Assembly (NCBI GenBank): GCA_944325415.1
Contig: CALUZW010000006.1
Coordinates: forward strand, 1 to 64,000
Length of the DNA stretch: 64,000 nt
Origin: an uncultured Bacteroidales bacterium
GTDB lineage: Bacteria > Bacteroidota > Bacteroidia > Bacteroidales > UBA11471
Reading direction: 5' to 3'
Part shown: piece after piece, positions 1 through 13,843 of the stretch
How positions within the stretch are numbered: position 1 is the first letter of the stretch
Layout: every line of letters begins with the position of its first letter
Position numbers and translations under genes: made by a program
Notes under the pieces: model-generated
Seen by the model: the letters and a program-made list of their open reading frames with translations, nothing else
Databases searched by the model: none
Told to the model about the DNA's origin: nothing

Positions 1-1250
1 GCTACTCCGACATCACCGCACTGCCTGAAAGCCTGTCAGTGGGTGGAAATATCGACCTGAGCGGAACACGCATCACCGCTCTGCCCGAAAGCCTCTCGGT
101 AAAGGGTAATCTCAACCTATTTTGGACACACATCACCACGCTGCCCGAAAATTTATCGGTGGAAGGGGATCTCGACCTACGCAACTCCGACATCACCGCA
201 CTGCCCGAAAATTTGTCGGTGAGAGGAAGTATCGACATGAGTAGCACACACATCACCGCACTGCCCGAGAATTTATCGGTGGAAGGGGATCTCGACCTGA
301 GCTACTCCGACATCACCGCGCTGCCCGAAAATTTGTCGGTGAAGGGTAACCTCAACCTGTGTGGAACACGCATCTCTTCCTTGCCCAATAATTTATCGGT
401 GGAAGGGAATCTCGATCTACAATTATCCGACATCACCACGCTGCCCGAAAGCCTATCAGTGGGTGGAAATATCGACCTGAGCTACTCCGACATCACCGCA
501 CTGCCTGAAAGCCTGTCAGTGGGTGGAAATATCGACCTGAGCGGAACACGCATCACCTCCCTGCCCAATAATTTATCGGTGGAAGGGAATCTCGATCTAC
601 AATTCTCCGACATCACCACGCTGCCCGAAAATTTATCGGTGAAGGGTAAACTCGACCTGTGTGGAACACGCATCTCCTCCTTGCCCAATAATTTATCAGT
701 GGAAGGTGATCTCGACCTATGTAGAACACGCATTTCCTCCTTGCCCGAAAATTTATCCGGGATAAGAAATATCCACCTGTGCGCAACACGCATCACCGCA
801 CTACCTGAGAATTTATCGGTAGAAGGGGATCTCGACCTGAGCCACTCCAACATTACCGTTCTACCCGAAAATTTATCTGTGGGTGGAAGTCTCTACCTGA
901 GTAACACTCACATCGCTACGCTGCCTCAAAAACTATCGGTAGGTGAAAGTCTCGACCTGAGCGGAACACACATCACCGCTCTGCCTGAGAATTTATCTGT
1001 CAAGGGGGATCTCGACCTGAGTGAAACACGCATCTCTTCCTTGCCTGAAAACCTGTCGGTAGGTGAAAGTATCGACCTGAGCAGAACATGCATTACCGCC
1101 CTGCCTGAAAACCTGTCGGTGGAGGGAAACCTCAACCTGAGCGGAACACGCATTACCGCCCTGCCTGAAAACCTGTCGGTGAAGGGGGACCTCGATCTGA
1201 GTGAAACATGCATCACCGCGCTGCCTCAAAAACTATCGGTAGGCGGAAAA
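1..1250 (+). repeat. Tandem 60-bp coding repeat, about 21 units
   Basis: The DNA repeats with an exact 60-bp period and no indels across the whole stretch. Each unit contains a core close to ACATCACCGC-CTGCCCGAAAA-TTATCGGT. Some unit pairs differ by only a few bases; for example, the units beginning near 1 and 481 are nearly identical over more than 60 bp. This is the pattern of recent unit duplication or gene conversion inside the LRR gene, and the copy number could vary between strains. Confidence 0.9.
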
Positions 1251-1286
1251 ATAATTCTTCCCGGGTCATTCTTCTCCAAAGTTTGA
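3..1286 (+). CDS. Leucine-rich repeat protein, 5' end outside window
   Basis: The reading frame is already open at the window edge (first full codon at position 3), so the start and any signal peptide lie upstream. The visible part consists almost wholly of 20-residue repeats of the form ITALPENLSVxGDLDLSxTx, about 21 of them, and ends in a short non-repeat tail (GGKIILPGSFFSKV). The spacing of Leu, Pro and Ile is that of a short bacterial LRR solenoid. Similar LPxxLxVxGxLDLxGT repeats are known from phage-linked and secreted bacterial proteins. Such solenoids normally bind proteins, but no catalytic or targeting domain is visible, so the function is unknown. A GTG at position 39 could be taken for a start, but the repeats run through it. 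Two small ORFs follow on the same strand. Confidence 0.8.
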   Translation, partial: YSDITALPESLSVGGNIDLSGTRITALPESLSVKGNLNLFWTHITTLPENLSVEGDLDLRNSDITALPENLSVRGSIDMSSTHITALPENLSVEGDLDLSYSDITALPENLSVKGNLNLCGTRISSLPNNLSVEGNLDLQLSDITTLPESLSVGGNIDLSYSDITALPESLSVGGNIDLSGTRITSLPNNLSVEGNLDLQFSDITTLPENLSVKGKLDLCGTRISSLPNNLSVEGDLDLCRTRISSLPENLSGIRNIHLCATRITALPENLSVEGDLDLSHSNITVLPENLSVGGSLYLSNTHIATLPQKLSVGESLDLSGTHITALPENLSVKGDLDLSETRISSLPENLSVGESIDLSRTCITALPENLSVEGNLNLSGTRITALPENLSVKGDLDLSETCITALPQKLSVGGKIILPGSFFSKV

Positions 1287-1298
1287 CCTATTACAAAC

Positions 1299-1391
1299 AT
1301 GAACTACGGGATAACCTCTCAACCCCAGAATAATGACATATGGATATATGCCGGTAATGCCAAAGACCGTAAACATGAGGCACCACTCTAA
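1299..1391 (+). CDS. Possible 30-residue peptide
   Basis: An ATG 12 bases after the stop of the LRR gene opens a 30-codon frame (begins MNYGITSQPQ, ends RKHEAPL) that stops 12 bases before the next ORF. The tight spacing on both sides is what supports it. There is no recognisable family and no strong ribosome binding site, as is usual in Bacteroidetes. It could also be a remnant of a longer gene. Confidence 0.25.
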   Translation: MNYGITSQPQNNDIWIYAGNAKDRKHEAPL

Positions 1392-1403
1392 AAACAAATA
1401 CTT

Positions 1404-1637
1404 ATGCCCAAAATGATTAAACGCGGAAAAGAACTTATCCGCATCTCCCCGGTTTCAGCAGGGAAACTCGAATATTCTTTCACGGACGGAAGATCATGGA
1501 CCGTTCGGTTCCAACCAAACTCCAATATCGGAGATTTTCTGGATTTGATCGATAATGGAAAAGAAATTTTAGCCCAAACGACCAAAGGACTGTTTTATTC
1601 GACAACCGAAGGTAGGTCATGGACCAAGCGCAGCTAA
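1404..1637 (+). CDS. Small unknown protein with two Asp-box-like motifs
   Basis: This 77-residue protein has no signal peptide or membrane segment. Two motifs, SFTDGRSW (near residue 25) and STTEGRSW (near residue 67), resemble the Asp-box/BNR turn motif of beta-propellers, although two blades cannot form a propeller. It follows the LRR gene and the 30-codon ORF on the same strand and ends just before a strong terminator, so the three are probably one transcript. The family is not recognised. A role with the LRR protein is inferred from position only. Confidence 0.6.
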   Translation: MPKMIKRGKELIRISPVSAGKLEYSFTDGRSWTVRFQPNSNIGDFLDLIDNGKEILAQTTKGLFYSTTEGRSWTKRS

Positions 1638-1640
1638 AAT

Positions 1641-1677
1641 AAAACAGGCAAGCGCAAGCTTGCCTGTTTTATTTTTT
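1641..1677 (+). terminator. Rho-independent terminator after the LRR cluster
   Basis: A perfect 13-bp stem (AAAACAGGCAAGC at 1641-1653, GCTTGCCTGTTTT at 1658-1670) with a 4-base loop is followed by ATTTTTT. It ends the LRR/small-ORF transcript. Confidence 0.9.
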
Positions 1678-1720
1678 CATTACAGAACCTAAGCGGCTCG
1701 ATATAAAATTATCTTTTCCT

Positions 1721-2007
1721 CTTTGTCTCTGCTCTCGCCTTTCACTATATTTTCAGAATACAGGAGGCGGCTCGGCATAGTCATCGATGAAAACTTTGTT
1801 TTCTCTCTTGCCTCTGCTCTCGCCTTTCACTATATTTTCAGAATACAGGAGGCGGCTCGGCATAGTCATCGATGAAAACTTTGTTTTCTCTCTTGCCTCT
1901 GCTCTCGCCTTTCACTATATTTTCAGAATACAGGAGGCGGCTCGGCATAGTCATCGATGAAAACTTCGTTTTCTCCTTGTCTCTGCTCTCGCCTTTCACT
2001 ATATTTG
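1721..2007 (+). repeat. Array of 85-bp intergenic repeats carrying promoter boxes
   Basis: Four copies of the core GCTCTCGCCTTTCACTATATTT start at 1731, 1816, 1901 and 1985, giving periods of 85, 85 and 84 bp. Between the cores lies CAGAATACAGGAGGCGGCTC followed by GGCATAGTCATCGATGAAAAC. 85 is not a multiple of 3, so the array is non-coding. In each unit a TTTG- or TTG-like box lies 20 bases before TATATTTT/TATATTTG, matching the Bacteroidetes -33/-7 promoter. Only the last, gene-proximal unit has the full TATATTTG. The same family occurs inverted at 13599-13843. Confidence 0.9.
1976..2007 (+). promoter_or_regulatory. Promoter of the WYL regulator, within the last repeat unit
   Basis: A CTTG box at 1976-1979, a 20-base spacer and TATATTTG at 2000-2007 match the Bacteroidetes consensus TTTG-N19-21-TAnnTTTG. 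The ATG lies at 2014, only 6 bases after the -7 box, so the mRNA would be leaderless or nearly so. Confidence 0.75.
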
Positions 2008-2013
2008 TACATT

Positions 2014-2925
2014 ATGGCAAAAAATCTATTTACCAGATACATCTGGCTCATCAATACCATTTATCGGGCAGGCAAAATTTCGCTCGAAGAAATCAATGAA
2101 AAATGGTTACTCTCCGACATGAGCGAGGGAGAGACCATACCCATACGCACATTCCATAATCACAGAAAAGCCATCGAAGATATTTTCGATATCAACATCG
2201 AATGTGAGAGACGCAACGGATACTGTTATTACATCGAAAATGTTGAAGACATTGAAAAAAATGATATAAAAAAATGGTTACTGAATACTTTCGCCGTAAA
2301 TAATATCATTAATGAAAATCATCTCCTCAAAAAAAGAATTCTATTGGAGAACATACCTTCGGGCGAAAAATACCTTATTCCCATGATCGAAGCCATGCGC
2401 TGCAATAGAGTGGTAACCATTTCGTATCAAAGTTTCTGGAAAAAATCGACCAAAACGTTCGACATAGAACCATACTGTCTAAAAATATTCCGTCAACGCT
2501 GGTATGTATTGGCACGCAGCTGCCGGCAAAACGATTTATTGGTTTTTTCGCTGGATCGCATTTCTTCTATCCATATAACCGAACAGACTTTTTCTTTGCC
2601 GGACGACTTCGATGCCCAGGAATTTTTCTCTTCCTGTTTCGGCATTATCGTGGAGCCGGACAAAAAGATAGAGACGGTACGCCTCATCGTTTATGGCAAC
2701 CAATATAAATACATACGTTCGTTGCCCCTGCATCACAGCCAGAAAGAGATAAAGACCGACAAAGAGATGGATTTCAAGATTTTTGAATACCAACTGCGAC
2801 CCTCTTTCGACTTTGTCAAGGAAATACTCTCCTACGGCGATGAGATAGAGGTGGAGTCACCTTCGTGGCTGCGCGACGTGGTAGCCAACATAACCCGCAA
2901 TGCCGGTATGTTATACCGGGAATAA
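2014..2925 (+). CDS. WYL-domain transcriptional regulator
   Basis: This 303-residue protein has an N-terminal helix-turn-helix region (residues 1-75, including an RTFHNHRKAIED segment) and a WYL domain at about residues 130-210 (CNRVVTISYQSF, then an RWYVLARS strand). WYL domains bind small ligands or nucleic acid and usually control defence, phage or stress genes. An upstream in-frame ATG at 1957 would add 19 residues encoded by the 85-bp repeat and would start before the promoter box, so 2014 is preferred. No restriction or CRISPR genes are adjacent, so the target is unknown. Neighbouring genes are not in an operon with it. Confidence 0.85.
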   Translation: MAKNLFTRYIWLINTIYRAGKISLEEINEKWLLSDMSEGETIPIRTFHNHRKAIEDIFDINIECERRNGYCYYIENVEDIEKNDIKKWLLNTFAVNNIINENHLLKKRILLENIPSGEKYLIPMIEAMRCNRVVTISYQSFWKKSTKTFDIEPYCLKIFRQRWYVLARSCRQNDLLVFSLDRISSIHITEQTFSLPDDFDAQEFFSSCFGIIVEPDKKIETVRLIVYGNQYKYIRSLPLHHSQKEIKTDKEMDFKIFEYQLRPSFDFVKEILSYGDEIEVESPSWLRDVVANITRNAGMLYRE

Positions 2926-2991
2926 AACAACATTTTCAAGGAAACCTCGTTATCTGAGAAATTGAATTAGTTTAACAAAAGTATTCTGCCC

Positions 2992-3411
2992 ATGCGCACG
3001 TTTAAATCGGGAATCGACGGCACGGCGTTTTATTCGCTGCTGGCGGTGGCGACGGCTGCCATGCTCTACTGCCTGTGGGTGGGGTATGTGGTGGCATGGG
3101 TGGTGTGCATGCTGGGAGCAGTGTTTCTCATTGCCCGCATCACCGGTACCGAATACCGTTTTCTCGACGACGGCACGCTTGTCGTGCGTTCGGGCTATCT
3201 GGCCACCTGCCGTGTACCGGTAACGGCTATCACCGGCGTGGCCGTCACCGTGCGGCGCTGCCCGTTTGCGGCTGCCTATGCCCTCTCCCGCCGCGGTGTC
3301 GTGCTGAGGCTGAGAGGGGCGAAACGGCCGCTCTTCGTCTCGCCCAAAGAGCTCGACGCTTTTGTAAGGGAACTGTCGCGCCGCAACCCCGCTATCGAGA
3401 TTTCCGACTAA
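2992..3411 (+). CDS. PH-domain (bPH) membrane protein
   Basis: This 139-residue protein has two N-terminal membrane helices (residues 13-50) followed by a small cytoplasmic beta domain: EYRFLDDGTLVVRSGYL, then VPVTAITGVAVT, ending in VSPKELDAFVRELSRRNP. The layout is that of the bacterial PH-like (DUF1200-type) family in Bacteroidetes. Its role is not established. It is convergent with the CNNM/CBS gene and shares a hairpin terminator with it. Expression probably starts in the 66-base gap after the WYL gene, though no clear -7 box is seen there. Confidence 0.7.
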   Translation: MRTFKSGIDGTAFYSLLAVATAAMLYCLWVGYVVAWVVCMLGAVFLIARITGTEYRFLDDGTLVVRSGYLATCRVPVTAITGVAVTVRRCPFAAAYALSRRGVVLRLRGAKRPLFVSPKELDAFVRELSRRNPAIEISD

Positions 3412-3425
3412 AAAATAAAAAGAAA

Positions 3426-3456
3426 GAGAGGCTCTGCCGCCGTGGCAGAGCCTCTC
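3426..3456. terminator. Bidirectional terminator between convergent genes
   Basis: A perfect 13-bp GC-rich stem, GAGAGGCTCTGCC (3426-3438) and GGCAGAGCCTCTC (3444-3456), lies between the stop codons of the PH-domain gene and the CNNM gene. A-rich sequence on its left gives a U-tract for the minus strand. Confidence 0.85.
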
Positions 3457-3479
3457 TCCAGTTTGTCGTACCGACGACA

Positions 3480-4523
3480 CTACATCTCCTTGTAGCGTTG
3501 CAGGCGGGCGTTCCAGCGGTCGCGGGCCAACTGCTGCATATCGACGACGGTATCGGTCTCGTCTATGATTTCGAGGCCGAAGATGGTCTCTACCACATCT
3601 TCCATGGTGATGATGCCGCGGAAGCAGCCGTACTCGTCGACAATGAGGGCTATCTGCTCCTTGTGTTCGAGAAGTTTTTCCCACACGGTCGATACCGACT
3701 TGTTTTCGGAGAAATAGGGTATGGGCCGGCGTATGTCTTTGAGTTTCATGTCGAACTTGTCTTCGGTGAGGTTTTCGAGCACCGTGCGCCGCAGCACATA
3801 GCCGGTGATGTAGTCTTTGCTGTCGCCATAGACGGGTATGCGCGAATAGAAACGGTAGGACTTCTCGTTGTAGAAGTCGCGCAGGGTCATCTCTTCCGAG
3901 GCCACGGCCGTCACCACGCGGGGGGTCATCACCTCTTTTACCTTCACGTTGTTGAGTCGGATAAGGTTCTGTATCACCTTGTTTTCCTTCGACTCGAAGA
4001 CTCCCTCTTCTTCGCCCACCGTGAGCATGGCCGATACCTCTTCACGGCTTACCGACACCTCTTTCTCCTTGGGAGAGAATACGCGGGTTATCAACTCCGA
4101 AAGCAGCACGAGCGGATAGCAGATGTAGACAAACACCCGTATCACCTGTGCCGAGAAGAGGGCCAGCCTGCGCCAGTACGAGGCGCCGATGGTCTTGGGT
4201 ATAATCTCGGAAAGCACGAGAATGAGTATGGTGAGTATGGCCGAGATGATACCGAAATAGGCCTCACCGAAAATCTTCACCGCCTCGGCTCCCACACCGG
4301 CCGCACCGATGGTGTGGGCAATGGTGTTGAGCGAAAGTATGGCCGAGATGGGCTTGTCGATGTTCTGTTTGTATTTTTTCAGCAGTCGGGCCGACGCTCC
4401 GCCTCCCTCCTGCTCTTTCATCGTGATAAACGACATCGGCGTCGAGAGCAACACGGCTTCGAGTACCGAACAAGTAAATGATACACCTAATGCCACGAAT
4501 AGGTATAAGAGCATTAATCCCAT
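3480..4523 (-). CDS. CNNM/CBS-domain (HlyC/CorC-like) membrane protein
   Basis: This 347-residue protein has an N-terminal DUF21/CNNM transmembrane domain (residues 1 to about 180, four hydrophobic segments, with EIIPKTIGASYWRR) and a pair of CBS domains (about 200-325, MTPRVVTAV and VDEYGCFRGIITMEDVVE). Relatives move Mg or Co ions or sense adenine nucleotides through the CBS pair. It stops soon after the second CBS domain, so the C-terminal CorC_HlyC domain of longer relatives such as GldE is missing. The start at 4523 places the first membrane helix at the N-terminus. Confidence 0.88.
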   Translation of the reverse strand: MGLMLLYLFVALGVSFTCSVLEAVLLSTPMSFITMKEQEGGGASARLLKKYKQNIDKPISAILSLNTIAHTIGAAGVGAEAVKIFGEAYFGIISAILTILILVLSEIIPKTIGASYWRRLALFSAQVIRVFVYICYPLVLLSELITRVFSPKEKEVSVSREEVSAMLTVGEEEGVFESKENKVIQNLIRLNNVKVKEVMTPRVVTAVASEEMTLRDFYNEKSYRFYSRIPVYGDSKDYITGYVLRRTVLENLTEDKFDMKLKDIRRPIPYFSENKSVSTVWEKLLEHKEQIALIVDEYGCFRGIITMEDVVETIFGLEIIDETDTVVDMQQLARDRWNARLQRYKEM

Positions 4524-13598: not shown

Positions 13599-13630
13599 CA
13601 AAGATAGGGAAAGGTGAGAGCAGAGGCAAG
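13599..13630 (-). promoter_or_regulatory. Promoter of the TrmH-family gene, inside a repeat unit
   Basis: On the minus strand CTTG (13627-13630) is followed after 20 bases by TATCTTTG (13599-13606), with the ATG 30 bases further on. Spacing and sequence are the same as in the repeat-borne promoter at 1976-2007. Confidence 0.75.
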
Positions 13631-13843
13631 TGAAAAACCCCGTTTTCAGATTGACTATGCCGAACCGCAACCTATCTTCGTGAAACAAAGATACTAAAAG
13701 GCGAGAGTAAAAAGACCAAACGAGATTGAGATTTTTACCGAGCCGCATCCTATCTTCTATAAAGATAGGGAAAGGTGAGAACAGAGGCAAAGAGAAAACA
13801 GAGTTTTCATCGTTGACTATGCCTAACCGTATCCTATCTTATA
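13599..13843 (-). repeat. Second array of the promoter-bearing repeat family
   Basis: Three units of roughly 75-85 bp (about 13599-13680, 13686-13757, 13758-13843) are inverted relative to the array at 1721-2007. On the minus strand they share GCCTCTGYTCTCACCTTTC, a TATCTTTR -7 box and CGGCATAGTCAA-GATGAAAA-type segments. The gene-proximal unit has a perfect TATCTTTG. The distal unit has TTTG-N20-TATCTTTA. The middle unit is more diverged. Open frames through it are not protein-like. Confidence 0.85.

Follow-up and report, generated by a model that had tools for sequence, protein, structure and literature searches.

The window analysed here, 64,000 nucleotides at the start of contig CALUZW010000006.1 of an uncultured Bacteroidales bacterium (genome G000 below), carries an intergenic array of four head-to-tail units at positions 1683-2007, upstream of a gene for a WYL/WCX-domain regulator (Table 1). 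The units are direct repeats whose starts are spaced 85, 85 and 84 nt apart, and Tandem Repeats Finder returns a period of 85, 3.5 copies and 97% matches over 1714-2006. Their right halves, CTTTCACTATATTTK, end at 1753, 1838, 1923 and 2007 with 0 mismatches in all four; when up to two mismatches are allowed, the right half is found five times in the window against 0.11 expected, a number that none of 100 shuffles reaches. The four units of about 85 bp that the original prediction placed before the regulator are therefore real, and the array begins at about 1683, earlier than first noted, with a decayed first unit. Each conserved stretch is followed by a box of the general form TATATTTK, in order TATATTTT, TATATTTT, TATATTTT and TATATTTG, as had been reported. 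The TTG said to lie upstream of the last box was also verified in the sequence: occupying 1977-1979, it precedes the box at 2000-2007 by exactly 20 nt, the layout of sigma-ABfr promoters (TTTG at -33 and TAnnTTTG at -7, as described in PMC7366714).

Table 1. Features of the two arrays of element E in the window (the name SpoU-like was taken from the N-terminus).
Feature	Position	Strand	Evidence
Inverted repeat and T-run bordering the array on its 5' side, resembling a terminator of the preceding gene	1636..1675	+	Arms of 18 nt, 100% complementary; also at the E-free site of sister genome G003
Element E copy 1; left arm decayed (CAGAACCTAAGCGGCTCG...), right half intact	1683..1745	+	Sequence; other units; 5' junction compared with the G003 empty site
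Duplicated -7-type box TATATTTT	1746..1753	+	Sequence, right-half match
Element E copy 2	1754..1830	+	Direct repeats; model R1 match 1757-1837
Duplicated -7-type box TATATTTT	1831..1838	+	Right-half match
Element E copy 3	1839..1915	+	Direct repeats; model R1 match 1842-1922
Duplicated -7-type box TATATTTT	1916..1923	+	Right-half match
Element E copy 4, adjoining the gene	1924..1999	+	Direct repeats; model R1 match 1927-2006
-33 TTG of the presumed active promoter, supplied by E, 20 nt 5' of the -7 box	1977..1979	+	Sequence; consensus as described in PMC7366714
-7 box TATATTTG, most likely native, presumed active; alone at the G003 E-free site	2000..2007	+	Right-half match; G003 comparison
Gene for the WYL/WCX-domain regulator, downstream; 6 nt between box and start codon	2014..2925	+	PF13280 3.6e-15, PF25583 1.1e-6
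Second array of the E family, three copies (13761-13840, 13687-13756, 13600-13678), final box TATCTTTG, 5' of a SpoU-like gene	13599..13840	-	Family matches, model R1; E-free site in G003

At the beginning of the window (1-1286) lies an open frame of 20-residue leucine-rich-like repeats with a 60-bp period, for which no Pfam match was obtained.

Anatomy and folding of the unit

The general plan of the unit is TATnTTT(G)-E-TATnTTTG, that is, a fold-back hairpin (E) flanked by two copies of the sigma-ABfr -7 box. E amounts to about 77 bp plus the box and is non-coding (85 is not a multiple of three), and where precisely it ends is known to within 1-2 bases. In the direction of the promoter, the box TATnTTT is followed by one base (G, T or A), in most cases by another three, and by an arm, AAnATAG, whose sequence is the box in reverse complement; beyond this arm come the core GGATGCGGCTCGGCATAGTC, a variable central hairpin and TTTGCCTCTGCTCTCGCCTTTCAC, and then the box again. 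The final box of an array, directly before the gene, is TATnTTTG, with one terminal box in G000 (MscL) reading TATCTTTA. Arm and box types correspond (A box with T arm, C box with G arm, T box with A arm) in 116 of 129 units, the set that remained of 143 extracted units after removal of 14 whose 5' arm is unclear; the 13 disagreements indicate that this match is not strictly needed. Upstream and downstream boxes match in 108/113 units. For the first units of arrays, which were counted manually, the upstream box was not recognisable in 15 of 45, and in 25 of the 30 others the two flanking boxes match.

The last base of the box depends on its place. In G000, internal boxes end in T (19), G (7) or A (1; n=27) and terminal boxes in G (19) or A (1; n=20), which suggests that selection keeps the last box. 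The expectation that only the gene-proximal unit has the complete box thus holds as a strong tendency in G000 and not as a rule, given the seven internal boxes with G and, at the public loci (64 units), the retention of G in 18/25 internal boxes. Likewise, all units carry the -33/-7 layout, but the proposal that every one of them is a promoter is doubtful, since most internal boxes of G000 lack the final G. A second intergenic repeat, approximately GGATTCCCGcTCtGnGGCGGGAATGACA, often adjoins E, as in the upstream regions of L046, L072, L053, L076 and L078.

The two arms of E pair over 23 positions, the inversion being imperfect and the outermost pairs taking in the target box. Among 68 non-redundant units, covariation of the stem scores 0.124 on the promoter strand (0.061 when shuffled) and 0.157 on the non-promoter strand (0.091 when shuffled), with 0/500 shuffles reaching the observed value in either case and far lower scores for slid controls. 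At three loci (L167, L161 and L184) the central hairpin has been swapped outright and is still a hairpin. Additionally, the non-promoter strand folds better in 66/68 units with DNA parameters and in 57/68 with RNA parameters, counts in which related units are not independent; this strand bias could partly reflect the constraint that the promoter places on the 3' arm.

Distribution and orientation of the family

A whole-genome search bears out the repeat family that had been proposed: G000 contains 62 matches to the unit, and the right half with up to three mismatches occurs at 39 places, against 0 for the reversed control. The matches C4:108139, C1:127579, C19:32391, C1:54098 and C11:21962 of this genome fall outside the loci that were read individually. 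An orphan right half at G000:C4:113512, considered as the end of a longer autonomous element, turned out to be a complete single insertion before another gene. Three of the seven genomes of the genus carry E according to model R1 (G000 59, G003 42 and G002 11 matches), as do 20 of 295 genomes in an even sample of Bacteroidales that was surveyed with strict filters among the matches listed (up to 15 per genome). An exact 23-mer scan, by which well-preserved copies are favoured among the public loci, returned 40 stretches, with Barnesiella sp. An22, Proteiniphilum acetatigenes, Phocaeicola barnesiae and Mediterranea massiliensis among the carriers. One clean box-E-box copy lies on a plasmid of Phocaeicola massiliensis and eight short unannotated faecal contigs labelled 'Bacteriophage sp.' hold a copy, while the viral_contigs collection contains 0 exact 23-mer matches; a phage or plasmid vehicle for E was considered, and one plasmid and eight contigs do not prove one. 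Several contigs end inside E arrays (C6, C9, C11, C14 and C24 of G000; C16 and C26 of G003), and draft genomes therefore probably under-count such arrays. At the end of C6 (L039, 3035-3110), an E unit is directly followed by what we take to be Illumina adapter-like sequence.

Sister genomes differ in their E loci. For 16 genes that E precedes in G000, manual reading shows it to be present in G003 at about 10 and missing at 6. Such turnover and the patchy spread are more in keeping with a mobile element than with a fixed regulatory device. Units are more similar within an array than between arrays (0.887 vs 0.794), but only 18/34 have their closest match in their own array, so that both local duplication and repeated insertion look likely.

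The orientation of the arrays relative to genes was the check that the original prediction had called for, and copies lie promoter-forward just upstream of genes far more often than in the mirror control. A frame on the same strand starting with ATG is found within 200 nt downstream in 87/91 arrays, at a median distance of 28 nt, whereas in the mirror control, which applied the identical rule to divergent starts within 200 nt upstream, 32/79 arrays qualify. In this count, arrays with an identical 40 nt of 3' flank were counted once, and L054 (the 13.6 kb array of the window) and arrays with less than 450 nt on the 3' side were left out. It replaced an earlier count with a crude gene finder, whose lower values (22/23, 10/11, 29/38 and 16/21) arose because open frames often began within the array. 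Three of the four arrays without such a frame precede an RNase P RNA (L185), a tRNA-Gly (L235) and a CRISPR array (L194). The fourth (L183, 6912-7062) is directed at the 3' end of a tRNA-Arg gene, with no gene start in the 200 nt ahead of it, and is the sole real exception. In L185 the 5' end of the RNase P RNA (5161) is located 5 nt past the last base of the E box (5166), which corresponds to the start distance that would be expected for a sigma-ABfr promoter. The genes downstream of E arrays are diverse, and a homologous promoter is dispersed before unrelated genes, as in a putative mobile promoter; gene names other than WYL, bPH_4, CNNM/CBS and the RNA genes were read from N-termini.

The distance between the final box and the start codon can be very short. 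In all seven genomes of the genus, the -7 box of the gene taken to be prmC (L049, L079, L097, L117, L125, L137, L102) ends exactly 4 nt before the ATG, and a start 5 nt past the box would make this mRNA leaderless. The WYL gene is similar, with a gap of 6 nt in G000 and 4 nt in G003.

E-free sites and the proposed insertion

Upstream regions of orthologous genes were compared across the six other genomes of the genus, the set of genomes varying from gene to gene. E-free orthologues usually have a single TAnnTTTG box at the matching place, followed by recognisable downstream sequence. TATnTTT(G) stands on both sides of E and in one copy in E-free relatives, a target-site duplication. Counterparts with a single box and alignable flanks are available for the Trx, M20 peptidase, L155 and WYL genes and for the CRISPR repeats of L194. 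The Trx gene is preceded by box-E-box-E-box in G003 and by one box in G000, and at the L155 gene alignable flanks enclose a single box in G000 and a pair in G003. At the M20 peptidase gene, a lone TATTTTTG in G001 corresponds to TATTTTTG-E-TATTTTTA-E-TATTTTTG in G003, and the sequences on either side can be aligned; the flanking boxes in G003 are T-type and the arm of the first unit is C-type. The WYL gene of G003, an E-free site, is preceded by ATTTCAT-TATATTTG-TATC-ATG, and the G000 locus reads TTTCATTA, the array, then TATATTTG-TACATT-ATG. Since the expected 5' box is not intact there (CATTA|CAGAA), we infer the duplication at the WYL array from the relatives.

The clearest case is L194, from an uncultured Barnesiella, where E interrupts two CRISPR repeats, in each case precisely at TATCTTT. 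The other ten repeats of this array are intact, TATCTTTG being present in nine of them and TATCTTTA in one. The copies of E (1100-3500, reverse strand) sit within repeats at one end of this CRISPR-DR49 array, in which each repeat has its own TATCTTTG and perhaps a promoter. The E in L194 has a T-type arm between C-type boxes; here and at the M20 gene the arm type differs from that of the flanking boxes, which points to the target, rather than the element, as the most likely source of the box. In L194 the left box copy is TATCTTTA and the right copy TATCTTTG, and as one uninterrupted neighbour also has TATCTTTA, E could conceivably have brought a 3' box of its own at this site. Over all comparable loci, the box is of the same type as in the first E-free relative in 17/21 (shuffled mean 8.9, p = 0.00016) and differs at LpxB, SbcD, MscL and L155; the PTPase gene, whose positions do not correspond, was excluded. 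Judged by these comparisons, the -7 box is most likely the host gene's own and was duplicated by insertion, with E supplying the -33 region and the spacer.

We therefore consider it probable that E is a small non-coding mobile hairpin that inserts at -7 boxes and duplicates the box, so that the gene keeps its promoter. According to this model, E would insert at the -7 box (TATnTTT|G) of an existing sigma-ABfr promoter and leave one copy of the box upstream and one downstream. The 3' arm would bring the -33 TTG to the correct distance from the downstream box, which, at its unchanged native distance to the gene, would stay the active promoter. E would then be tolerated, and fixed in the promoter-forward direction only, because this last box is still used. 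Arrays would grow by local duplication and probably also by repeated insertion beside the gene. Movement is presumed to be MITE-like, with a recombinase supplied in trans that acts on the non-promoter strand in its folded form; through its complementarity to the box, the 5' arm may help to choose or hold the target.

It is conceivable, with a rather low probability, that E represents a promoter-parasitic class in which the 5' arm guides E, folded as a single strand, into the -7 region while the open complex keeps it melted. If true, this would account for the precision of insertion at -7, the fixed direction, the folding bias towards the non-promoter strand and the 4 nt that usually separate box and arm, a gap by which the arm lies at about +1 of the upstream box. 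Gene conversion or selection for the hairpin could also make the arm complementary to the box.

The mobilising enzyme was not found when the Y1 and integron integrase families were searched in 13 E-bearing genomes. As one version of this enzyme, a tyrosine recombinase may treat E as a cassette-like substrate and exchange strands within TATnTTT, using either a folded single strand, in the manner of integron attC sites, or a tiny circle, in the manner of CTnDOT. This candidate is a serious alternative, though one of fairly low probability. The 7-base core direct repeats and the tandem arrays adjoining a gene are in its favour, as is the bias of folding towards the non-promoter strand, and the attB site of CTnDOT resembles TAnnTTTG, a resemblance for which the literature searched gave no account. 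A bottom-strand preference has been described for attC sites (PMC2727003, PMC6393395). Tyrosine recombinases are encoded in 13/13 E-bearing genomes, but relatives of XerC/D occur everywhere and their presence is not evidence. E is also unusually small for a cassette, and none of the 13 genomes has an integron integrase above the curated cut-off; TIGR02249 gave sub-threshold matches only, both in these genomes and in all 14 control genomes.

A repeat that delivers promoters, as the original prediction had it, would bring the whole promoter including the -7 box to genes. The tuning of expression by copy number that was suggested along with it is hypothetical. The dispersed family with its -33/-7 layout stands, as do the box at the end of every unit and the promoter-forward bias, and the right copy in L194 has G where one uninterrupted neighbour has A. 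The delivery of a whole promoter is nevertheless improbable, as the box is already present, with conserved downstream sequence, in E-free relatives, its type follows the relative at most loci compared, and the three box types track the locus and not the element, the arms at M20, L194 and L148 being of another type. About as improbable is a non-mobile, conserved operator or RNA leader that the promoters of a regulon retain and that slippage has multiplied. The conserved, covarying hairpin and the likeness of units within arrays would suit such a device, whereas the diversity of downstream genes, the many loci that differ between sister genomes, the restriction of E to a minority of genomes in both genus and order, and its insertion in CRISPR repeats and in a plasmid are at odds with it; moreover, no Rfam family exceeds threshold at the E copies in 9 loci or in the window at 1300-2300. 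Finally, a REP sequence moved by a RAYT (Y1, HUH) transposase, which the small, dispersed, imperfect intergenic palindrome with one better-folding strand brings to mind, is very unlikely and is rejected because Y1_Tnp (PF01797) is absent from 12/13 E-bearing genomes, including G003 (99% complete) and the single-contig G295, and a box-sized direct repeat flanks E.

If insertion at -7 boxes is correct, tiny mobile elements across several Bacteroidales families target the promoter cores of housekeeping type and survive by duplicating them, so that the gene keeps its promoter. Mobile sequence could then inhabit promoters without silencing genes, which would constitute a mechanism of promoter rewiring without loss of expression. 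In that case, the family would also provide a natural promoter-replacement set for probing sigma-ABfr rules, and E would mark recombination activity in gut Bacteroidales.

Relation to known systems

E is short, non-coding and dispersed and has imperfect terminal inverted repeats and a target-site duplication, all of them features of MITEs; no related autonomous element or transposase was found among the Y1 and integron integrase families searched. Neither a description of the family nor a match to four E sequence strings was found in the literature searched, a coverage that extends to few subscription journals. Among published elements, the BrickBuilt MITE of Porphyromonas gingivalis is, like E, intergenic, made of tandem repeats and found in Bacteroidales; promoter activity was reported for it and the authors suggest the term 'Putative Mobile Promoter' (PMC4596501). 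As described there, BrickBuilt consists of 23-nt repeats between a leader and a tail, with 12-bp IS5-like inverted ends, and its duplications vary in length and sequence, whereas the target of E is a -7 box and its direction is fixed. In addition, the 85-nt unit of an E array is itself the hairpin element. Correia elements have a TA target, and the target duplicated by E is the host's own -7 box. The Correia elements of Neisseria, according to their description, share with E the small size, the non-autonomous nature and the promoter-bearing position upstream of genes, and differ from it in being larger and in having internal, sigma-70-like promoters (PMC10969869). BrickBuilt and Correia elements are the nearest published relatives in kind, and their descriptions, as far as these go, give neither of them a fixed -7 target, a fixed direction and arrays of whole elements.

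REP sequences and their RAYTs resemble E as dispersed intergenic imperfect palindromes with strand asymmetry; E is set apart by its promoter-forward orientation, its box-sized direct repeats and the lack of a Y1 transposase in 12/13 of the genomes that bear it. The attC sites of integrons are likewise imperfect palindromes with one better-folding strand, arranged in head-to-tail arrays to which, as is also proposed for E, additions are made repeatedly at one end. Unlike attC, E has no cassette gene, no integron integrase above the cut-off and many promoter sites in place of one attI. With ordinary sigma-ABfr promoters, as described in PMC7366714, the E site shares the layout of TTTG/TTG at -33 and TAnnTTTG at -7, and the difference would lie in the origin of its parts, the -33 region being contributed by the inserted repeat and the -7 box by the host.
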